Assembly (NCBI GenBank): GCA_029624815.1
Contig: JARSSH010000010.1
Coordinates: 94,685 to 157,399, forward strand
Reading direction: 5' to 3'
DNA length: 62,715 nucleotides
Origin: Candidatus Competibacter sp.
GTDB lineage: Bacteria > Pseudomonadota > Gammaproteobacteria > Competibacterales > Competibacteraceae
The notes beneath the pieces were generated by a model. It saw only the letters and a program-made list of their open reading frames with translations, was not told the origin of the DNA and did not search any database. Made by a program: the position numbers and the translations under genes. Of this stretch, positions 34,430 through 46,622 are shown piece after piece (position 1 is the stretch's first letter; each line of letters begins with the position of its first letter).

Positions 34430-37400
34430 CTAGGATTCGTCCAGTTCCGGCTGGCTGGCGCGCACCTCCCTCAGGACGAGCAATGCCCGCTCGTAATCGA
34501 AATTGTCGATCCACCGCGCCAAGTCGTCGGCCCTCTCTCCCAGCGCCGCCTTCAGCGGCGCCGCCGATCCCCGGAACACCGCGTTAGCCTCGATGTTGGC
34601 CTGCGCCAACAGGGTTTCCAGTCGGGCCAGCGCCGCGCGGACTCGCGGCCAATCCACCTCGACGGAAGGAGTCGCCACCGCCGGCAGCGCCGCCCGCAGC
34701 GCGGCGACCAGCATCTCCTGCTCCGCCTCCAACGCCGCCACCCGCCGCTCGATCTTCTCCGCCGGCTCCCCGTCGCGCAGCGCCGCCTCCAGTTCGGCGG
34801 CCAACACCTGCACCCGAACCGCGCCCAGCGTGCCCGCCACCCCCTTGAGGGTATGGGCGAGCCGGCGGGCCGCCGGCTCATCCCCGGCGTCGCGGCATTC
34901 GCGCAGCGCGGCTCCATCGCCAGCATGGTCGGCCGCGAACTTCCGCAGCAGCCGGATGTAACCGGCGACTTGCCCGCGCATCCTCCATAAACCCACCTCC
35001 GCGTCGAGACCGGGGATTGCCGCAAGGCACGCCGGGTCCAGGTCGGCGACCTCTTCCGCCGGCGCCCAGACCGGCGGCGACCCAGACGACCGGCTCGGCA
35101 CGGGGGGCAACCATTTGAGCAGGGCGGCAAACAACGCGGCCGGTTCGACCGGCTTGGCGACGAAGTCGTTCATCCCGGCCTCCAGGCAGCGCGCCCGGTC
35201 ATCGGCGAAAACATTGGCGGTCATCGCCAGGATCGGGGTGGTCTCCCGGCCCGGAATCCGCCGGATTTCCGCCGTCGCTTCCAGCCCGTCCAGATCCGGC
35301 ATCTGCACGTCCATCAGGATCAGGGCGTAGACGGTGGCGCCGGCCTTGGCCACCGCCTCCCGCCCATTCGTCGCGGTATCGACCGCCAACCCCACCGCAT
35401 CCAGCAGGGCCAGCGCCACTTCCCGGTTGACGGCGTTGTCTTCCGCCACCAGCACCCGAGCCCCCACCGCCCGCCGCCGCAGCGCGTCCTCGGCCGTCGC
35501 CCGGCGCGGCGCGGCGGCTGCCGCCTGGGCCTGCCCCCGCTTCAGCCGGGCGGTGAACCAGAAGGTGCTCCCCTCCCCCGACCGGCTTTCCACCCCGACC
35601 TCGCCCCCCATCAGCTCGGCCAGCCGTCGGGTGATTGTCAGCCCCAGCCCCGTGCCCCCATATCGCCGCGTGGTCGAGACATCGGCTTGCGCGAAGGCGT
35701 TGAAGATCCGGCTGGTCTGATCCTGGGTCAGGCCAATTCCAGTGTCTCCCACTTCAAACCGCGCCACCACTTCGTTGTCCCGTTCGTCCACGAGTCGCGC
35801 CCGCAGCGTGATCCCACCCCGTTCGGTGAACTTGACCGCGTTGCCGGCGTAGTTCAACAACGCCTGGCGCAGCCGGGGCGCGTCCCCCCGCAGCCAGACC
35901 GGCGCCACTCCCTCGTCCACCGTCAGCGTTAGCCCCTTGGCCCGCGCCGCCTCGGCTATCAGCGAGCGTGCCTGGTCCAGCAGCGCCGGCAGGTGAAAAT
36001 CGGCTTGTTCCAACTCCAGCTTGCCGGCCTCGATCTTCGACAGGTCGAGAATGTCGTTGAGTAGCGTCAGCAGATGATGGGCGGCGGCGTCGATTTTACC
36101 CAGCCGCTCGGTCTGTTCCGCCGTCGGCTTCTCCCGCCTCAGCAAGTGGGTCAATCCGACAATGGCGTTCAGCGGCGTGCGAATCTCATGGCTCATGTTG
36201 GCCAGAAACGCGCTCTTGGCCCGGTTGGCCTGTTCCGCCGCCTCCTTGGCGGCCTCCAGCGCCACTTCGGCCCGGCGGCGCATGACAATCCGCCACAGGT
36301 CGGAGCCGAGGAGTTGCAACTCGTGCTCGTCCGACTCGTCGTAGTCGGTCGGCTTGTTGCCCACCCCCAGCAACAGCCGCACCTTATCCACTTCCACCAC
36401 CGGCACCCCCAAGTGGCGGATCAGGTGGGCGTGGCCCGCCGGGTAGCCCTTGCGATCGGGGACGTTCTGGTAGTCGTTGTGGACGACCGGGCGACGTAAT
36501 CGCACCGTATCCGCCCATACCCCGGCCATGGACATCGGGTAATGACTGTCGTAGACGGCGGTACATTGCTTGAGGGTATCGGCCGACCAGGCGAAGAGTT
36601 CGATGGTTTTCTGGTCGTCGTCGAACAGATGCAGGTAGCCGATCGCGCTGTCGGTCAGGCGCACGGCTTCCTCGATGCCGCGATGCAACAACTCGCGCTC
36701 GTCCATCCTGTCGACCTGCTGACTCATCTCGAACAGCGCCTGGAGCCGCAGATCGCTGACCCGCAATTGCCGGTTGGCCGCTTCCAGTTCCGCCGTGCGC
36801 ACGGCCACGCTTTCCTCCAGATGGTGGCGATACCGCTCCAGTTCGTCGACCATCCGCTTTTGCTCGGTGATGTCGCGCCAGATGCCGAGCAAATAACTCC
36901 GGCCGCGCAGTTGGATGACCCGCACGGTGACTTGCGCATCGAGAACGCCGCCGTCCTTGCGGCGGTGTCGGGCCTCGAAACGGGCGCCGCCGGTCGCCAG
37001 CAACCGGACGCACATCGCCTTGAGGTCGTCTTCGCTCAGATCCGCCTGAATCGCCGCCATGGGTAACCCCAACAGCTCGTCGTGGCGGTAGCCCAGCATC
37101 CGGCACGCCGCCTCGCCAACCTCGACGAAGCGCAGGGTTTCGGCGTCCACCAGATCGATGGCCTCGCCGGCCTGATTGACGAGGGTGCGATACAGTTCTT
37201 CCCGTTCCTGCAACGCCTCCCGCGCCCGCTTTTGTTCGGTGATGTCGCTCCACACCGCAAGGATCCGTTCCCGTCCCCGAAAATCCATCAAGCGCAGGGC
37301 GAGCTGGCTATCGATCACATGGCCATCCCGCCGCCGATGTTGCATTTCCAGGGAGATTGTCGCGATCCGACGCAATTCAGCCAATGTTTCCCGGAATACC

Positions 37401-40400
37401 CCCTCGAAAATCCCGGCTGGCAAGGCTTGGATGTCCGGCAGCCGCAATTGGGAAAATTCCGCCTCGCTGTAACCGAGCAGGGTGTGGGCGGCCCGGTTGA
37501 ACCGGACGAAGCGCTGAGTCTCCACGTCCACCAACTCGATACCGACGCTGACCTGGTCGAAAATGGCCACCAACAGGGCTTCGCGTTCTTCCAGGGCGCG
37601 TTGCTGGGCCTTGCGGTCGCCGATGTCGCGAGTGATGGTGATAAAAACGCTGCGCCCGCCGATACGGAACCCTCTGATGCTGACCTCGGCATCGTACAGC
37701 GTGCCGTTCTTGCGGCGATGGCGGCTTTCGAAAGTGGTGTTGATCGCGAGGATATCGCCGAACCCGGCGCGGATGTCCGCCTCGGTCATATCCGCGTCCA
37801 CATCCCAGGAATAGAGGTCGAGCATTTCTTCCGGCGTGTAGCCCATCATTTCGGCAAAGCACCGATTGGCCTCGATGATCCGATGGTTCTCGCCGAAAAT
37901 GGCGATGCCGTCGCGGGAATTCTCGATCAGCGCCCGGCGCCATTCGGCTTCGTTCGCCAACGCCATCCGACCCGCCTTCTCGGCGCCGATGTCACGCCAA
38001 ACGGCCACGCAATAATCCCGGCCGCGCAGGTGAATGATCTGGACGCTAACCTGGACCTCAAGGATGCCGCCATCCTTGCGGCGATGCCGGTTGTCGAAGC
38101 AGGCGCTGCCCGTCATTTGCAACTGTGCAACGTGCGCGCGCAAACTCGCCTCGTCCAGGTCGGCTTGAGTATCCGGCAGGGAAAGTCCAAGCATTTCCTC
38201 GCGGCTGTAGCCCAGCATCCGACAGGCCGCGTCGTTGACCTCGACAAAGCGCAAGGTTTCCGCGTCTATCAGTTCGATGCCGTCCGCGGCTTGATCGACG
38301 ATGGCGCGATAAAGTTCCTCGCGCTCGCGCAGCGTTTCGGCCGCGCGCTGTTGCTCGGTGATGTCATACCAAATCCCCACGAGATAATTCCGGCCTCGAA
38401 TCTCGACGATTCGATTGGCAACGCGCACGCAACGGGTATCGCCGTTCTTACAGCGTTGCACGTTTTCGAATATGCCTCCGCCTCGTTCGAGGAGGGACGA
38501 TACTCGCTCGGTCACTTGCGCCGGGGTCAGGACTCCCTGAATGTCGTTGAGAGTGAGCTGGGCAAACTCCTCGCGGGTATGACCGAGTCCGTGGCAGGCC
38601 GCCTCGTTGAACTGGGCGAAGCGCAGCGTTTCGGCGTCGATCAGCACGATTCCGTTAGCGGCCTGGTTGAAGATGGCGCCGTAGATTTCTTCCCGTTCCC
38701 GCAGCGCTTCCTGTGTCGCCCGCGCCGCCGTGATATCGCGGGCGATACCGAGCACGCCGATCAGTCGTCCGTCGGCGCCACGCATGGGGGTCTTGATGGT
38801 TTCGAATAGCCCCCGATAACCATCGCCGGCAAAGGTGAGCCACTCTTCGTTGACGCGCGGCCCGCCCGCCGCGGCGGCGGCACGATCGTTCGCCCGGAAA
38901 AAATCGGCCAGTTCCGCATCGACGAAATCGTAGTCGGACTTGCCGACGATCTCCGCCTCGCTGGCTCCGTACAAGCGTTCGAAGGGCGGATTGCAATTCA
39001 GGTAGACCCCCTCGGGGTCTTTCAGCCAAACCAGATCGGGAATGGTCCGTACCAGCGTTTGCAATCTGGCGCGTTCGATTTCCAGCGTGCGCTGCGCTTT
39101 CCTTTCCTCGGTGACATCGCGGAAACTCCAGAGACGCGCTTGCTGGTCACCCAGGGCAATCGTCCGGGCGAATCGCTCGAAAATCCGGCCATCCTTGCAT
39201 TGCAAAACATCCCGGCGGATCTCGTCCGTCTGGCAGCGTCGCCGCGTGTCTCGCAGGAAACCCTCGGGATCGGATAACTGGTCGCGCATGTATCCGAGCA
39301 ACGGCTCGTCTTGCCCGGCGGCGATCAATTCGCTCGGTATTCGCCACAATTCCCCAAGGTTGCGGTTGGCAATCAACACCGAGTGATCGTCGCCGACCAC
39401 CAGGATGCCGTCGGCGGTTGAATCCAGAGTGGCGCGTAAAAGGGTTTCGCCGCGCTGCAAGGCTTTCCGCTGGCTAACCTGCTCCGCGATGTCGCGCGAC
39501 ACGCCGATGATCGCCGACCGACCGTCCCAGTGGCCGATCGCCACGCGGGTATCCACCAAAACGCGCCCGCCGTCGGCCTTCAGCAGGGGTAGCGAGTAAC
39601 TCGCCCGGGTTCCGGCCCGTATCTCGGCGATCACGCGCCGGGCCTCGTCGTGGGTCTCGGGCGGATGAATGGTCCAGACCGGCCGACCGAGCAGCGCGTC
39701 GCCATGGCCCAGCCCCACCGCCACCGCCGGGTTGTAGTGCAGGACATGCCCTTCCAGATCGAGGACGAACAGATAATCGTCGATGGCGCCGAACAGCCCC
39801 GCCAGATTTTGCCGCTGGTTTACGGCTTTTTCCTGGGCCAACAGCCGTTCCAAGGCTTGGGCGAAGTGCCGCGCAAGCGTTTCCAGGGCGATGACGGTCA
39901 GCCGTCCGACCACCCCCATTTGCTTGCTGGCCAGATTGAGACAGGCGAGGGGTTCGCCACCGACGTGAATCGGCAACACCACCAGCGAGCGGATGCCTTC
40001 TTCGACCGACACGGGTTCCAAAACCAGCGGGGAATCGGTGCAATGATCCTGCAAAGGCGTACAACCGCACTGTAGCCGGCCTTGCCGGACTATTTCCGCC
40101 TGGGGAGACTCCGCCGCCCGGTAAGCAACCTGGGCGCAAAACGTTTCGGACAAGCCCCGCTGGACCGCCATGCGATAGCCGCCATCCGGTTCGCGCCAAT
40201 ACAGTCCGCCGCCGTCCAGTTCGGGCAGACTTAGCGCGCTGTTCAAAATGGCTTCCAGCAATTGCCGTCGATCCGGCTCCCTGGCCAGTATCGCGGAAAA
40301 CTCGTGCTGCGTCCGCACCAGCAACTCGGCGTGCTTGCGCTCGGAGACATCCAGCAGGGTTCCCACGGTGAGCAGTGGCCGACCGGCCGCGTCCCACCGC

Positions 40401-40774
40401 ACCACCCGGCCCCGTTCATTAAACCAGACCCACCGGCCGTCCGCCACGCGCAGGCGATATTCGGACTCGTACCGCGGATCGTCCTGCGCCAGCGCCGCCG
40501 CGACGCGGGTTTTCATGTCTGGCAGGTCGTCGGGGTGGATCAGGTCGAACCAGGCCGAGAGACTGGATAAGGGCTGCTCGGCGCCGTAACCCATCAGGGC
40601 GCGGGCGGAAGGACTCCAGAAAAGCCGGTCGGCGGCGTTGTCGTATTCCCAGATGCCGATGCCGGCGGCATCCAGCGCCGACTCCAGGTGGGATTGCGAC
40701 AACGCGAGTTCCCGCCACGGCGTTCCCCGCGTATTCACGGCGCCGGAATGATCGGGATTAATGGACGTGTTCAC
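34430..40774 (-). CDS. multi-PAS/GAF hybrid histidine kinase with receiver and Hpt domains
   Basis: 2114 residues, start GTG 40774, no transmembrane segment, so a cytoplasmic sensor. Domain order by eye: PAS (30-150), GAF (155-325), eight further PAS domains (about 330-1350; repeats with [18 protein letters not shown]-like cores), a short coiled coil, a GAF_2-type domain (about 1360-1500), HisKA with His1529 ([11 protein letters not shown]), HATPase ([23 protein letters not shown]), receiver with Asp1822 ([10 protein letters not shown]) and Hpt with His1974 ([14 protein letters not shown]). All phosphorelay residues are present. The conserved Cys/His cluster [10 protein letters not shown] in the first GAF could bind a metal or cofactor. 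No response regulator is adjacent, so the output is unknown. Several PAS repeats are close copies, showing recent internal expansion. Confidence 0.93.
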
Positions 40775-41307
40775 ACGGGAGATCTCGGTTTAAGGCGGTC
40801 TTGTTGGGTTAGGCGCCGCGCGCCATCTCGACCCACATCCATGACCGATCCAGGATTGCCATGGGTATGATACTCGCTTGGCACATTGGGATGTGCGCTT
40901 GTCGACTCAGGCTTATCGACTCAGGCAACGGTAGCGGCGATCCTGTCCCGAAACATGGCCAGATCGCTCTTCAGCGATTCGTCGCTGCCGCCATGATGCT
41001 CGCGTCATTCAGCCCGCGGGAAGACATTGCTCATAAAACTCGCCCGGCGCCTTGGCGCCTGTCTATCCGTCGGGTAACCGGGATGGCATCGAACGGAAAA
41101 TCCCGCGGCCACAGAGAACCGCCTGAACCGGCCCAGTCGTCACGGCGAACGGCCTGGCGGGCTCCAGCCAGTCAACAATAATTTCAACCATAAATTATTT
41201 TGCAATCCGCATCCAAACGCGGGATGGAAGCGCATTAGCAAGGGAAGCAGCGCTTCACTCATCCGGCGACCCTGTCGCCACCACCCCGTTCGCAGAGGAG
41301 GATTGTC
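40775..41307. other. intergenic region between the hybrid kinase and DUF4331 genes
   Basis: 533 bp between divergent genes. A plus-strand frame (40861-41181) and short minus-strand frames have no recognisable similarity. Bases 40921-41006 on the minus strand read GSDESLKSDLAMFRDRIAAT-like peptide to a stop, with an in-frame stop upstream and no start, possibly a gene remnant. The DUF4331 gene has GAGGAGG at 41296-41302 as its ribosome-binding site. No RNA gene was seen. Confidence 0.5.
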
Positions 41308-42864
41308 ATGCCCCGCCCATTTTCCCGCACCTGTCTGAGTCTGGCCCTGACCTTGGCGACCACCCTCGGCCACGCCGCCAATCACCGCGAAGCACCGCTG
41401 ACCGCCCTCGATCCCAAGGCCGACGTTACCGACTTCTTCGCGTTCGTTAGCTACGACGATCCCGGCAAGGTTACCCTGATCCTGGACGTCGATCCGCTGC
41501 TGGAGCCCAGCAACGGCCCCAACTACTTCCCGTTCGATCCGGAAATCCTGTACGCCATCCGCATCGACAACAATCACGACGCCGTCGAGGACTTGCGCTT
41601 TGAATTCCGCTTCAATACCGAAATCCGTGCGCCCGGCGTGTTCACCGGCTTCGTCGGCGCCGGGGACGGCCTGAAAGCGCCGGCCAATTCGCCCTCGCCG
41701 GTGGCGCCCGGCACTCCCCTGATCCCGCCCGCCATCACCGCGCTGGACGGACCCGGTTCCGCGGGCCTCAGCCTGCGCCAGCGCTATACGGTCACCCTGG
41801 TGCGCGGCAACCAGCGCACCGATCTGGCCAACGGTCTGATCGCGGTGCCCACCAACGTCGGACCGCGCACCATGCCCGATTACGCCGGTCTGGTCGAACA
41901 GGGCGTTTACGATCTCGGCGGCGGCATTCGCGTATTCGCCGGCACGACGGACGACCCGTTCTGGATCGACTTGGGCGCGGCCTTCGACTCGCTGAACTTC
42001 CGGACGCTGCCCGGCGGCAGCGGCATCCCCGGCGTGCTTTCCGCCGCGCAGGACGCCGCCGACGACCGCAACTTCGCGCCCGACGACGTGGCCGGCTTCA
42101 ACGTCAACGCCATTGCCATCGAGGTTCCCGTCACCCTGCTGACCCGCGACGGCCGACCGCACGCCGCCAACGAACCGCTGGCCACCCTCGGCGCCTGGGG
42201 CACCACCTCCCGCCCGCAGGCCAAGATTTACCGCGGTCCCAGGGAAACCCCGGTGCTCTCCAACCGCTTCATCCAGATTCAACGCATGGGCAACCCGCTG
42301 TTCAACGAGCTGATCATCGGCACCGGCGACAAGGACAAATTCAGCATGAGCCAGCCCAAGGACGACGCCCAGTTCGCCAGCTACGCCCTGGACCCGCTCC
42401 TGGCTCGGGCGCTGAACGCCATTTACACCGACGCGCTGCCGATCCCGACGCCGCCACGCGCCGACCTGCTGCCGCTGGTGACCTACGCCGCGCCGATCGC
42501 CGCGCCCGGCACGCCGGCTGGTCCGGTGGCCGACCTGTTGCGCCTCAACACTGGGGTGCCCGCCACGCCCGCCGCGCAGCGCAAGCGAATGGGTCTGCTG
42601 GCTGGCGATCCAGCCGGCTTTCCCAACGGCCGCCGGCTGTCGGACGACGTGACCGACATCGCGGCGCGGGCCGTGGTCGGCGTGCTGGCCGGCGGCAAGT
42701 TCGCCAGCTTCCCGCACAACGCCATCGGCGACGGCGTCAACGCCAACGACGTGCCCTACCGGGAGAGTTTCCCCTATCTCGGATTGGCGCATTCCGGCCG
42801 CAACAGCCGCCATGTGGACCCGGGCGAGCCGGATTGCGACAGCGGCGACTGCCCGATCGACTAA
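41308..42864 (+). CDS. exported DUF4331 family protein
   Basis: 518 residues. The signal peptide ends near LGHA|ANHREAP. The mature start ANHREAPLTALDPKADVTDF and FFAFVSYDDPGKVTLILDVD, the IRIDNNHDAVEDLRFEFRF segment and the C-terminal NEPLATLGAWGTTSRPQAKI are typical of DUF4331, a periplasmic or extracellular family of unknown function found in many environmental bacteria. The Asp-rich IDNNHDAVED loop may bind metal ions, which is inference. It heads a co-directional block with a TPR protein and a HupE/UreJ-like membrane protein, followed by an ECF sigma/anti-sigma pair. Confidence 0.88.
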   Translation: MPRPFSRTCLSLALTLATTLGHAANHREAPLTALDPKADVTDFFAFVSYDDPGKVTLILDVDPLLEPSNGPNYFPFDPEILYAIRIDNNHDAVEDLRFEFRFNTEIRAPGVFTGFVGAGDGLKAPANSPSPVAPGTPLIPPAITALDGPGSAGLSLRQRYTVTLVRGNQRTDLANGLIAVPTNVGPRTMPDYAGLVEQGVYDLGGGIRVFAGTTDDPFWIDLGAAFDSLNFRTLPGGSGIPGVLSAAQDAADDRNFAPDDVAGFNVNAIAIEVPVTLLTRDGRPHAANEPLATLGAWGTTSRPQAKIYRGPRETPVLSNRFIQIQRMGNPLFNELIIGTGDKDKFSMSQPKDDAQFASYALDPLLARALNAIYTDALPIPTPPRADLLPLVTYAAPIAAPGTPAGPVADLLRLNTGVPATPAAQRKRMGLLAGDPAGFPNGRRLSDDVTDIAARAVVGVLAGGKFASFPHNAIGDGVNANDVPYRESFPYLGLAHSGRNSRHVDPGEPDCDSGDCPID

Positions 42865-42893
42865 CGGCTGACACCCCTCGCGTGAGAGCGACC

Positions 42894-44141
42894 ATGAACA
42901 CACTCCTTGCCTTTAGTGCGCTACGCGAGGGCGCCGGCCGCGCCGCGCCCCGGCGCGGCGGGTTCGGCCTGCTGCTCGGCGCGCTGCTGACCGCCGCCGC
43001 TCCGTTGCCGGCGGCCCCCTTTCTCCCCACCGACCCTAACCAGGTGCTGGAACGGCTGCCGTTGGCGGCGGCCGATGCCCAAACCCAGGAACTGCGCGAG
43101 CTGCGCCGCCAACTGGCGGACCGGCCCGACGATTTGGAATTGACGCTCCGCTTCGCCCGCCGCAACCTGGAAATCGGCCGCGCCGAAGCCGATCCCCGCT
43201 ACTACGGCTACGCCCAGGCGGCGCTGGCCCCCTGGTGGGACCGGGTTCCGCCGCCGCCCGAAACCCTGCTGCTGCGCGCCGTGCTGCGGCAGAACCGCCA
43301 CGACTTCGACGGTGCGCTGGCCGATCTGCGCCAAGTGCTGGCGGCGCGGCCCCGCCACGCCCAGGCCTGGCTCACCCAAGCGGTGATCCAGCAGGTGCGG
43401 GGCGAACCGGCGACGGCGCTGCGCGCCTGCCTGGCGCTGCGACGCTTGACCGACACCCTGCTATTCAACGCCTGCCTGAGCGGCGCGCTGAGCCGGGCCG
43501 GGCAAGCCGGATTCGCTCAGGCTAATCTGGAGCGGGCGCTGGAAGCCCGACCCGAGACACCCGACGAGGATGAAGCGCGGTCGTGGGCACTGACCGTGTT
43601 GGCGGAAATCGCCGAACAGATCGGCGACGCGCTGGCCGCCGAACGGCATTACCGCGAAGCCCTGGCGCTGGGCCGACGCAACGTCTACCTGCTCGGCGCC
43701 TGGGCCGATTTCCTGCTCGACCGCAACCGTCCCGCCGAGGTGCGCGAACTGCTCCGCAACGAGCAGCGCGCCGACGGTCTGCTGCTGCGGCTGGCGCTGG
43801 CGGAACGACGGCTGGACGACCTCGCCTGGATCAGCCACACCGAACTGCTGGAGGCGCGCTTCGCCGCCGCCCGCCAGCGCGGTGACCACACCCATATCGC
43901 CGCCGAGGCGCGGTTGCGACTGGATCTGCGCCGGCAACCCCAAGCGGCGCTGGCGCTGGCCCAACGCAACTGGGCGCAATGGCAGCGCGAGCCCCGGGAC
44001 GCCCGCCTGCTGCTGGAAGCGGCGCTGGCCGCCGGTCAACCGGAGGCGGCGCGCGAGGTGCTGGACTGGCTGGAGCGGACCAAGCTGGAGGATGAGCGGC
44101 TGGCCGACCTGGGCCGGCGCTTGCGGGAGACAAAGTCATGA
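42894..44141 (+). CDS. exported TPR-repeat protein
   Basis: 415 residues from ATG 42894. A hydrophobic segment GFGLLLGALLTAAAPLPAAP near residues 22-41 looks like an export signal with a long basic lead. The rest is helical repeat: FDGALADLRQVLAARPRHAQ, AERHYREALALGRRNVYLLG and others, consistent with tetratricopeptide repeats over residues of roughly 130-400. It is presumably a periplasmic scaffold. It starts 29 bp after the DUF4331 gene and its end overlaps the HupE/UreJ-like gene by ATGA, so the three products are probably made together. Confidence 0.8.
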   Translation: MNTLLAFSALREGAGRAAPRRGGFGLLLGALLTAAAPLPAAPFLPTDPNQVLERLPLAAADAQTQELRELRRQLADRPDDLELTLRFARRNLEIGRAEADPRYYGYAQAALAPWWDRVPPPPETLLLRAVLRQNRHDFDGALADLRQVLAARPRHAQAWLTQAVIQQVRGEPATALRACLALRRLTDTLLFNACLSGALSRAGQAGFAQANLERALEARPETPDEDEARSWALTVLAEIAEQIGDALAAERHYREALALGRRNVYLLGAWADFLLDRNRPAEVRELLRNEQRADGLLLRLALAERRLDDLAWISHTELLEARFAAARQRGDHTHIAAEARLRLDLRRQPQAALALAQRNWAQWQREPRDARLLLEAALAAGQPEAAREVLDWLERTKLEDERLADLGRRLRETKS

Positions 44142-45367
44142 TCGCCGGCCTGAACGGAAAACCAGACCTGACCCGCGCCGATGGAGAATCGCCATCCGAC
44201 CCGAAGCGGGTCAATCGCTGGTTGGTCCCCCTGACGCTATTGTTCACCCTGCTCGCGCTTCTGCCGGGTCTCATACCCAACGCCTTCGCCCACAAACCCA
44301 GCGACAGCTATCTCAGCCTGACGCCGCGCCCCGACGGCTGGGATGCGCGCTGGGACATCGCCCTGCGCGATCTGGAATACGCGCTGGGTCTGGACGACAA
44401 CGGCGACGGCGCCATCACCTGGGGCGAACTGCGGGCGCGGGAAAGCGCCGTGACGGCTTATGCCCTGGAACATCTGAGCCTGCGCGTCGGCGCGGCCCGT
44501 TGCGACCCGCAACCGGGCCCGATGTGGGTCGCCGACCACAGCGACGGCGCCTATGCCGTGCTCGATTTCGCGCTGATTTGTCCGGCCGGAAGCGCGCCGA
44601 CGCTGGACTACCGGCTGTTCTTCGCCCTCGATCCCTCCCATCGGGGACTGTTGCGGGTAGACGCGCCAAGCGGCGTGACCACCGTCGTGCTGTCGCCCGA
44701 TCGGCCGCGCCATGTGCTGAATGCCGCGTCCGCCGGCGGCTGGCGGCAGTTCGCGAGCTACTGGAAAGAAGGGGTCTGGCATATCTGGATCGGCTTCGAC
44801 CACATCCTGTTCCTGTTGGCTCTGCTCTTGCCCTCGGTGTTGTGGTGGGAAAACGGCGGCTGGCGGCCAGCGGCGGCGCTGCGGCCGGTGATGCTGGACA
44901 CCGCCGCCATCGTGACCGCCTTCACCCTGGCCCATTCGTTGACCCTGACCCTGGCGGTGCTGGGCGTGGTCAATCTGCCCAGCCGGCTGGTGGAATCGAC
45001 CATTGCCTTCACCGTGGTGCTGGCGGCGCTCAACAACCTGTTCCCGGTGGTCAAAACCCGGCGCTGGGCATTGGCGTTCGCGCTGGGGCTGGTCCACGGC
45101 TTCGGCTTCGCTAGCGTATTGCGAGATTTGGGACTGCCCGCCGATGCCTTGGCGCTGGCGCTGGCCGGTTTTAATTTGGGCGTGGAAACCGGACAACTGG
45201 CCATCGTTGCGACCGCGCTGCCGCTGGCCTTTCTGGTCCGGCGAACCTGGCTGTATCGGCGCCTGGTGCTACCGGCGGGTTCGGCCCTCGTCGCCTCGCT
45301 GGCCCTGGTCTGGTGTCTGGAACGCGGTCTGAACCTCCGGCTGCTCGCGCTGGCTGGCGGGAGCTGA
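44138..45367 (+). CDS. HupE/UreJ-like membrane protein with an EF-hand loop
   Basis: 409 residues. A hydrophobic leader ends near NAFA|HKPSDSY. The periplasmic part (residues of roughly 50-210) contains a canonical 12-residue EF-hand calcium loop at 86-97 (DDNGDGAITWGE) with acidic or amide residues at positions 1, 3, 5 and Glu at 12. The C-terminal half has about six membrane helices with the HupE/UreJ_2 pattern: GVWHIWIGFDHILFLLALLL, TAFTLAHSLTLTLAVLGV and FALGLVHGFGFASVLRDLGL, rich in His and Asp within helices. HupE and UreJ are linked to nickel uptake; this two-part branch is not characterised. It overlaps the TPR gene by 4 bp. Confidence 0.85.
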   Translation: MIAGLNGKPDLTRADGESPSDPKRVNRWLVPLTLLFTLLALLPGLIPNAFAHKPSDSYLSLTPRPDGWDARWDIALRDLEYALGLDDNGDGAITWGELRARESAVTAYALEHLSLRVGAARCDPQPGPMWVADHSDGAYAVLDFALICPAGSAPTLDYRLFFALDPSHRGLLRVDAPSGVTTVVLSPDRPRHVLNAASAGGWRQFASYWKEGVWHIWIGFDHILFLLALLLPSVLWWENGGWRPAAALRPVMLDTAAIVTAFTLAHSLTLTLAVLGVVNLPSRLVESTIAFTVVLAALNNLFPVVKTRRWALAFALGLVHGFGFASVLRDLGLPADALALALAGFNLGVETGQLAIVATALPLAFLVRRTWLYRRLVLPAGSALVASLALVWCLERGLNLRLLALAGGS

Positions 45368-45422
45368 CGCAGCCATGCGCGCACGGCCTTGTTGTTTTTC
45401 CGGCGACCACCGCCGGCGCGCA

Positions 45423-45451
45423 TTGTCGCCACGAACGGCGACCGCTAGAAT
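45423..45451 (+). promoter_or_regulatory. candidate sigma70-type promoter for the ECF sigma gene
   Basis: TTGTCG (45423-45428), a 17-bp spacer and TAGAAT (45446-45451) lie 36 bp before the GTG start of the ECF gene, matching consensus at 4/6 and 5/6 positions. Supports separate transcription of the sigma/anti-sigma pair. Confidence 0.45.
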
Positions 45452-45486
45452 TTGGGCAGGTCATCACCAGGGACAGGCAACGTACC

Positions 45487-46071
45487 GTGAACCACGCCCC
45501 ACCATCGCGACCTTCCGCCGAACCTCCAGCGTCCCCACCCATCGAAGACCTACTGGCGGCAACCGCCCGTGGCGACCGGCCGGCCTTCGCCGCGCTGTAC
45601 CGGCTCACGCACCGTCGGCTGTACGCCATTGCCCTCGTGCTGCTGCGCCGACCGGAAGCAGCCGAAGACGTGCTGCAAGAAACCTACCTGGCGGTCTGGC
45701 GCACCGCCGGCCAGTATCAGCCGGGACGCGCGCCGGCCCTGATCTGGCTGATGGCAATCGTCCGCCACCGGGCGATCGAGCAATTGCGCCAGCGCCGTCG
45801 CCGGGCCTTGGAGACCTTCGCCGAACCGCTGGACGAGGAAGCCTTGCAGATACCCGATCCCGGTCCGTCGCAGGCGGTGGATCACTTGGCTCATGCCATT
45901 CAGGAGTGCCTGCGGCGCCTGTCCGCCGAACAGTCCCGAGCCATCGCGCTAGCCTTTTTTCATGGGCTGAGCCACGAGGAACTGGCCGCGCATTTGCGAA
46001 CACCACTCGGCACGATCAAAAGCTGGGTGCGACGGGGCTTGCTGCAACTCAAGGGGTGTCTGGAATCATGA
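45487..46071 (+). CDS. ECF RNA polymerase sigma factor
   Basis: 194 residues from GTG 45487, the usual ECF length; a frame open from 45313 adds an unrelated N-terminus. Region 2 is visible as AFAALYRLTHRRLYAIALVL with RPEAAEDVLQETYLAVWR; region 4 as LSAEQSRAIALAFFHGLSHE with ELAAHLRTPLGTIKSWVRRG. The pattern is that of the SigK/RpoE-ChrR type group. It directs RNA polymerase to stress promoters and is held by the anti-sigma factor encoded next, with an ATGA overlap between the two genes. The target promoters may include its own and the upstream DUF4331 operon, which is inference from position. Confidence 0.93.
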   Translation: MNHAPPSRPSAEPPASPPIEDLLAATARGDRPAFAALYRLTHRRLYAIALVLLRRPEAAEDVLQETYLAVWRTAGQYQPGRAPALIWLMAIVRHRAIEQLRQRRRRALETFAEPLDEEALQIPDPGPSQAVDHLAHAIQECLRRLSAEQSRAIALAFFHGLSHEELAAHLRTPLGTIKSWVRRGLLQLKGCLES

Positions 46072-46622
46072 ACCGCAACGAAGCCGAAAGCCTGGCGGGC
46101 GACTACGTGCTCGGTGCGCTGAGCGGGCCGGAACTGGCGGAATTCGAGACCGTCCTGGCCGCCGATCCGGTGCTGCGCCAGCAAGTCTCGGCCTGGGAGC
46201 GGCGGCTGACCCCCCTGGCGGCGACGCTGCCCGAAGCGACGCCGCGCGCCGCGCTGTGGGACGCCATCGAAGCCGCGCTGGACGCCGACGGTCCGCCCGC
46301 CACGGTGACCGTGCGCGAACGGGAAGGCGAGTGGCGGACCCTGACGCCGGGACTGGAAATCAAGCTGCTGCTGGTGGACCGGCAGGCCGGCTTTCAATCC
46401 TTCCTGCTGCGGCTGGCGCCGGGTTGCCAGCTTCCGGCGCACGATCACGACGCGCTGGAGGAATGCCTGCTCCTGGAAGGCGACATGCTGATCGGCGACC
46501 GGGCCTACACAGCGGGCGATTACCACGCGGCGCTGCCCGGCTCGCGCCACGACCCCATTTCAACCCGCAACGGCGGCGTGGTGTTCCTGCGCAGCCAGTT
46601 GCGGCCGGAATTGTGCGGGTGA
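46068..46622 (+). CDS. cupin-domain anti-sigma factor (ChrR/RskA-like)
   Basis: 184 residues from ATG 46068. The N-terminal 70 residues (ESLAGDYVLGALSGPELAEF) are the sigma-binding domain as in RskA-type anti-sigma factors; the zinc-binding His/Cys set of ChrR is absent. The C-terminal 100 residues form a cupin with a metal-binding signature (LPAHDHDALEECLLLEGDML and YHAALPGSRHDP), as in ChrR. No membrane segment, so it is a soluble cytoplasmic sensor. ChrR releases its sigma factor on singlet oxygen or peroxide signals; the signal here is not known. Confidence 0.88.
   Translation: MNRNEAESLAGDYVLGALSGPELAEFETVLAADPVLRQQVSAWERRLTPLAATLPEATPRAALWDAIEAALDADGPPATVTVREREGEWRTLTPGLEIKLLLVDRQAGFQSFLLRLAPGCQLPAHDHDALEECLLLEGDMLIGDRAYTAGDYHAALPGSRHDPISTRNGGVVFLRSQLRPELCG

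Follow-up and report, generated by a model that had tools for sequence, protein, structure and literature searches.

A conserved DUF4331, TPR-like and HupE/UreJ_2 module with a SigK-like ECF sigma factor and a predicted role in transition-metal handling

Introduction

Do five adjacent genes of a Competibacter genome, three of which encode exported or membrane proteins and two a sigma factor and its putative partner, form one system, and what would such a system handle? The genes lie at 41308-46622 in a stretch of 62,715 nucleotides (here called the window) from Candidatus Competibacter sp. (Gammaproteobacteria; GenBank assembly GCA_029624815.1, contig JARSSH010000010.1, positions 94,685 to 157,399). 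They are co-directional on the + strand and encode a DUF4331 protein, a TPR-like protein, a HupE/UreJ_2 permease (HupE2), an ECF sigma factor and a cupin anti-sigma factor (Table 1). An earlier note, made from the DNA sequence of the window, had named these genes in this order; all five are present with the domains as named, except that the second can be called only TPR-like, since every Pfam TPR match of its product is below cut-off (the best, TPR_12, at 28.4 versus 30.1 bits). The same note held that none of the first three genes has a known role, which is outdated: HupE2 proteins with an N-terminal His have been described (PMC12537917). DUF4331 has a single match in the host genome, and no mention of it was found in the open-access literature searched. 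There PMC12537917 was the one paper found on PF13795 or anglerase proteins; papers on HupE/UreJ, nickel, copper or TonB in connection with ECF or anti-sigma factors dealt, judging by titles and opening lines of abstracts, with other subjects than such a module.

Table 1 Features of the locus in the window.
Feature	Position	Strand	Basis
ECF-type promoter-like site GCATCC-N16-CGCAT, degenerate -10	41209..41235	+	Upstream of DUF4331; place and element as in relatives
DUF4331 protein, exported; predicted mature start Ala-Asn-His at 41377	41308..42864	+	PF14224 E 7e-113; N-terminus; model pLDDT 87
TPR-like protein, exported	42894..44141	+	Pfam TPR matches below cut-off; kept beside HupE2 in relatives
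HupE/UreJ_2 permease, periplasmic N-terminal domain	44138..45367	+	PF13795 E 1.5e-47 (above cut-off), conservation, model, fold match
Predicted mature His1 of HupE2	44291-44293	+	Conservation
EF-hand loop of HupE2	44393-44428	+	Conservation
SigK-like ECF sigma factor, GTG start 45487	45487..46071	+	PF04542, PF08281; closest PDB chain SigK 4nqw; cysteine pair; tree
Sigma-factor cysteine codons	45907-45909 and 46057-46059	+	Alignment with SigK
Soluble anti-sigma factor, RskA-like sigma-binding domain and ChrR-type cupin	46068..46622	+	PF12973 (Cupin_7) E 8e-17; ASD similarity to RskA-type neighbours; ChrR alignment

Results

Conservation of the gene neighbourhood

The five genes form a genuine module that is found widely. 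Of 274 genomes drawn evenly from the class, 25 have DUF4331 and 79 have HupE/UreJ_2; both the TPR-like gene and HupE2 were found beside DUF4331 in 17 of the 25, with the sigma pair also present at many loci. Counted by locus (n = 30, fragments, second copies and the window included), the TPR-like gene is present at 19, HupE2 at 17 and an ECF gene at 13. A contig scan for DUF4331 gave 544 relatives, 80 of them among the matches listed, and 78 of these were used, L117 and L123 being left out as they share contigs with L031 and L035. These 78 loci, among the matches listed, have the TPR-like gene in 32, HupE2 in 20 and an ECF gene within 6.5 kb in 32; the kind of ECF is not always the same. HupE2 without the TPR-like gene occurred once across the class-sample and scan sets, the latter again among the matches listed, and within the same limit many loci of the Actinobacteria and Chloroflexi have DUF4331 without HupE2. 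The order of the window, operon followed by sigma factor and anti-sigma factor, is repeated in L087 and L092, where RskA takes the last position. A further 21 loci were fetched later as an extra set, one of which (L258) repeats L092.

The earlier note had called for a neighbourhood survey and had named the lack of a conserved neighbourhood in other genomes as grounds for refutation; this did not occur, because the neighbourhood is conserved in other genomes.

The HupE2 permease

Judged by sequence and predicted structure, HupE2 is of the published 'anglerase'-HupE/UreJ-2 kind with His1 (Cu/Ni), here in an EF-hand subfamily, and Cu/Ni binding is predicted. Ang-1, the domain carried by a HupE/UreJ-2 permease, binds Cu at 74 nM and Ni at 220 nM (PMC12537917). 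As there, the PF13795 permease of the module protein is preceded by a periplasmic beta-sandwich domain whose first residue, once the signal peptide is removed, would be His. His1 directly follows the predicted signal peptide in 36/36 module HupE2 proteins (in the window the predicted cut is between AFA and HKPSD). In mature numbering Asp27, His117 and the membrane residues H164, D170, H171, H215, E235, H269, E299 and Q302 are invariant, and Cys71 and Cys97 nearly so. The model of the window protein has a pLDDT of 91.8. Foldseek matched its periplasmic domain to ZrgA (8f1b), PA4063 (7bgo) and Cu-bound Ang-1 (9gce) at E 1.5e-5 to 3.8e-5, the match to Ang-1 being at E 3.8e-5 with a TM by target of 0.64.

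Unlike the published anglerase permeases, the module HupE2 has a canonical EF-hand loop and adjoins DUF4331, a TPR-like gene and often an ECF sigma gene; the neighbours of Ang-1 named in the text of PMC12537917 are DUF4198 and others, not DUF4331, and its main text contains no DUF4331, EF-hand, TPR or sigma factor. The loop, DDNGDGAITWGE, occupies residues 86-97 of HupE2, exactly where the earlier note had placed it, and fits the EF-hand positions D1, D/N3, D/N5 and E12; Pfam EF-hand models gave no match to the window protein at E 0.001. A strict loop is present in 32 of the 35 aligned module HupE2 proteins, the window included (32/36 with L134, which was left out of the alignment and is without the loop), versus 1/40 HupE2 proteins not adjoining DUF4331; these 40 were hand-picked, mostly from the upper part of the list and many with short N-domains, so that the comparison is a subfamily contrast and not a random sample. 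The one exception among the 40 (L208) also adjoins a TPR partner. The loop was found again in 14/14 later loci with HupE2. Since the neighbourhood recurs and the loop separates module proteins from other HupE2 in this way, the grouping of the genes is more than chance. In the model the loop lies between strands 2 and 3 of the periplasmic domain, and Ca sensing there is no likelier than a structural Ca site.

The N-terminus of DUF4331

When DUF4331 N-termini were compared, two residues were always seen between a plausible processing point and a conserved His. The motif H.[EDGA][ASGT]P is present in 112 rows, and all 111 untruncated ones have X-X-His at the predicted mature start; L093, cut by a contig end, was left out, and nine rows without the motif in the first 200 residues, mostly fragments, had been dropped. 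In 78 rows a hydrophobic stretch precedes the residue at -1, which is Ala (71), Gly (6) or Ser (1). In the other 33 the start codon itself is at -1, and removal of Met would expose Ser-Ser-His or Ser-His-His, as in L074, which starts Met-Ser-Ser-His. X-X-His is also present in 21/21 later loci, the repeat L258 included. A crude signal-peptide rule called 69 of 85 DUF4331 proteins and cut at X-X-His in 49 of these 69, and His occupies that position in 6/256 other exported-looking ORFs. DUF4331 proteins thus appear to mature exactly at X-X-His, an ATCUN-type Cu/Ni motif, through either signal peptidase or Met removal; with ATCUN (NH2-X-X-His) proteins they would share a free N-terminus two residues before His, as predicted from sequence. 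The pattern is a new observation and, like the module, solid as a fact of sequence.

Across 68 DUF4331 rows, His3 and Pro7 never vary, and Ser2, Arg4, Glu5 and Ala6 rarely do. Because residues 2-7 are invariant or nearly so, a structural role of the N-terminus is also possible. Cytosolic versions of DUF4331 occur, without HupE2. The AlphaFold model of the mature window protein has a pLDDT of 87 and a pTM of 0.90, the first ten residues being lower at 73. Foldseek searches with this model against the PDB and viral models gave no match below E 0.001. When the Foldseek list was re-examined with VIA-align, Ig-like entries and a single CBM9 entry reached Z 5-5.6, a likeness that may be just the common beta-sandwich arrangement. 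A new fold is not claimed.

The sigma factor and its partner

The closest PDB chain to the window sigma factor is SigK (4nqw, E 4e-24); both late cysteines align, the pair being 50 residues apart. The equivalent C133/C183 pair is kept in 94% of ECF18, 56% of ECF19 and <2% of other families (PMC7509140). For ECFs with E below 1e-55 at these loci, the pair is present in 21/21 with an RskA-type partner and missing in five of the six with a cupin partner, the exception being that of the window. In the tree the window ECF is placed inside a clade of RskA-partnered ECFs (97/97) and apart from the other five cupin-partnered ones (99/94), and two separate changes to a cupin partner are preferred over a single origin.

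The window anti-sigma factor resembles two known types. Its N-terminal domain is RskA-like in its ASD similarity to the RskA-type neighbours, and its helix ESLAGDYVLGAL resembles the AS19-1 consensus HTLAGAYALDAL (PMC7406223). Its cupin aligns with ChrR, the ECF11 anti-sigma factor (2z2s and 3o14), at the ligands H-x-H-x3-E and H. It differs from ChrR in its sigma-binding half, where residues 1-75 have no Cys or His for a zinc site, and its TIGR02451 score of 34 bits falls below the ChrR cut-off of 124.5 bits. It differs from RskA, the type of partner found in 21 loci, in having the cupin in place of RskA_C: no RskA_C match was found in the window protein and no membrane segment by eye, and the RskA_C part is present in the anti-sigma factors of relatives such as L142. 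The genes under its putative control also differ from those of SigK-RskA (ECF18/19). As an RskA-like N-domain is joined to a ChrR-type cupin without RskA_C, the sensor half appears to have been exchanged while the sigma-binding half stayed.

A putative ECF promoter upstream of DUF4331

The pattern GCATCC-N16-CGNAT occurs in 18/103 regions upstream of DUF4331 (the window included), whereas 100 shuffles gave 0.06 on average and never more than 1. Apart from two at N17, no other spacing of GCATCC and CGNAT was seen in the 103 regions. On the two strands of 1.68 Mb of loci there are 20 copies of the strict form (CGTAT or CGAAT): 17 upstream of DUF4331 (L040 included), one upstream of a sigma gene (L031) and two elsewhere. 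A leave-one-out PWM trained on 17 regions detected the element in 32/103 at p 0.005 and 44/103 at p 0.05, the chance expectation at the latter threshold being about 5. Among the later loci the strict element is present in 3/21 (2/20 without the repeat L258), which indicates that it varies or is absent in several clades.

The earlier note had suggested searching for an ECF promoter shared by the DUF4331 and sigma genes. Upstream of DUF4331 in relatives such an element is found; the window copy has the expected position and an intact GCATCC, yet it is degenerate (CGCAT for CGTAT, PWM p 0.04), and no strict copy was found upstream of the window sigma gene. For these two reasons, we infer rather than observe sigma control in this genome. 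The host genome (3.6 Mb) has 18 exact matches to the relaxed pattern; two of these, other than the window copy, have CGTAT and are nearer the consensus than it. With up to one mismatch there are 330 matches versus 80 for the reversed control. Defining a regulon by pattern was given up. No M. tuberculosis SigK promoter for comparison was found in the open-access literature searched.

Metal-related neighbours and genome context

HupE2 is replaced beside DUF4331 and the TPR-like gene by a NicO nickel/cobalt transporter (PF03824) in four of eight acidobacterial loci (L060, L062, L065 and L120); two of the remaining loci are cut by contig ends. NicO is of a different membrane family from HupE2 and is not found in the window; like HupE2, the acidobacterial proteins appear to start with His after a signal peptide. 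Because they are closest to the RcnA-type efflux model, export is possible.

Urease is commoner in DUF4331 genomes (15/25 versus 56/249, p 1.6e-4) and more weakly so in those with the adjacent trio (8/17, p 0.049), both as raw counts uncorrected for genome size and kinship. NiFe hydrogenase showed no association (5/25 DUF4331 genomes versus 47/249 others), and a nickel link through hydrogenase was rejected. A family of TonB receptors, whose mean column identity is 59% across seven rows, is present in 8 loci; it was not found in the host genome at E 1e-100, and with 3/25 DUF4331 genomes versus 5/249 others having it, it was rejected as an essential part.

Discussion

The earlier note had offered a stress-controlled envelope or metal-handling system. 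Its metal-handling part is favoured by His1 of HupE2, the fold match to ZrgA, PA4063 and Ang-1, the NicO swap and X-X-His of DUF4331, from which metal binding is predicted. Metal capture is the reading that best connects the His1 permease of anglerase type with the NicO swap and an X-X-His carrier. On this proposal, whose chances we judge to be about even, the genes would form an envelope module that regulates itself and that captures and transports a transition metal, with Cu(II) or Ni(II) the likeliest candidates. Exported DUF4331, which in Rhodobacterales might leave through a type II secretion system, would bind the metal at the X-X-His end of the mature protein, while the TPR-like protein might hold metal-loaded DUF4331, or metal, near the membrane. 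The periplasmic domain of HupE2 would take over the metal through His1 and the conserved Asp and His, its EF-hand probably being a stiffening Ca site, and the metal would pass inward or outward through the HxxxGxDH permease. Transcription of the operon would start at the promoter upstream of DUF4331 and depend on the SigK-like ECF factor. This factor would be held by the anti-sigma factor, of RskA type in most relatives having one and here a soluble cupin fusion, whose cupin may sense a signal (metal or oxidant) in the cytoplasm.

The same parts could serve Cu/Ni detoxification, DUF4331 scavenging excess metal outside the cell or in the periplasm, the permease exporting it and the sigma pair answering metal or redox stress. 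ATCUN sites are able to buffer Cu, the NicO partner most resembles RcnA-type nickel/cobalt efflux transporters and the sigma factor has the SigK-type cysteine pair, all of which would suit this reading; we nevertheless consider it unlikely, as PMC12537917 describes HupE relatives as permeases that take up nickel and the TonB receptor of the 8 loci is an uptake device. Nor need DUF4331 be a metal protein: residues 1-7 could plug the structure or bind a partner, and the module could maintain the envelope or secreted proteins. The conservation from Ser2 to Pro7 exceeds what ATCUN chemistry needs, and the weak resemblance (Z about 5) to Ig domains and CBM9 and the cytosolic versions without HupE2 point the same way. 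This reading leaves unexplained why exported and cytosolic proteins alike have a predicted end two residues before His, and why two metal-permease families replace each other, and its probability seems low.

A system answering periplasmic Ca sensed by the HupE2 EF-hand, as the earlier note had thought plausible, appears very improbable. The canonical loop that it rests on is indeed conserved in the module and in the later loci, but sensing is not favoured: the loop is in the periplasmic domain of the permease and the window anti-sigma factor is soluble, HupE2 showed no link with the sigma pair, a lone EF-hand flanked by two beta strands suits a structural site, and Pfam recognised no EF-hand.

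Returning to metal capture, a broader form can be put forward more tentatively, at somewhat less than an even chance. DUF4331 would be a pan-bacterial family of N-terminally processed Cu/Ni proteins, with a confident model, no clear PDB fold match and a free NH2-X-X-His kept in exported and cytosolic members. In Proteobacteria it would be the extracytoplasmic carrier for an anglerase-type permease under a dedicated SigK-like ECF factor, and in this lineage the anti-sigma factor would have swapped the RskA membrane sensor for a cytosolic cupin with the sigma-binding half kept. If true, the newly described anglerase permeases gain a carrier protein and a regulator, and the locus provides an example of an anti-sigma factor changing its sensor. 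DUF4331 is widespread, and the invariant metal-type N-terminus, metal-permease partner and predicted promoter make this unknown family cheaply and concretely testable.

Among 12 plasmid regions, DUF4331 adjoins type II secretion genes in 5/5 records of Rhodobacterales plasmids, and a prepilin peptidase also adjoins it in four of the five. Since type II secretion genes adjoin it, DUF4331 of the Rhodobacterales may be carried outside the cell.

Gene neighbourhood of the DUF4331 module

In the window, a 2114-residue ORF lies immediately upstream of the DUF4331 module, on the opposite strand; inspection of its sequence by eye suggests a hybrid sensor kinase with numerous PAS-like repeats. Among the compared loci (L-numbers), seven from Gammaproteobacteria, chiefly Alteromonadales (L095, L106, L112, L128, L133, L138 and L142), encode a lipoprotein-like protein between DUF4331 and the position of the exported TPR protein, with a bacterial Ig/cadherin-like domain (domain checked in the L112 member). 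In L208, the TPR and EF-hand HupE2 genes form a pair with no DUF4331 beside it, and the DUF4331 search found none in the source genome.

DUF4331 is present as two or three adjacent pieces in L054, L056 and L059, which may represent either a broken gene or split half-domain genes. In 13 actinobacterial and Chloroflexi loci, the gene for a cytosolic DUF4331 protein is adjoined by one for a member of a family of small proteins, mostly of 103-165 aa; the single member searched (L078) had no Pfam match. Five loci (L076, L085, L091, L110 and L121) encode, upstream of DUF4331, a small protein whose N-terminus is twin-arginine-like, the one searched (L076) likewise lacking a Pfam match. On Rhodobacterales plasmids (L140, L144, L224, L225 and L226), DUF4331 is directly adjoined by compact type II secretion gene sets, placed as if it were their cargo.

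Coordinates of neighbouring features, within the window or the named locus
Feature	Source	Position	Strand
Putative hybrid sensor kinase	Window	34430-40774	-
Small protein beside cytosolic DUF4331	L078	2749-3114	
Small protein beside cytosolic DUF4331	L075	9581-9925	
TPR and EF-hand HupE2 pair	L208	1266-3721
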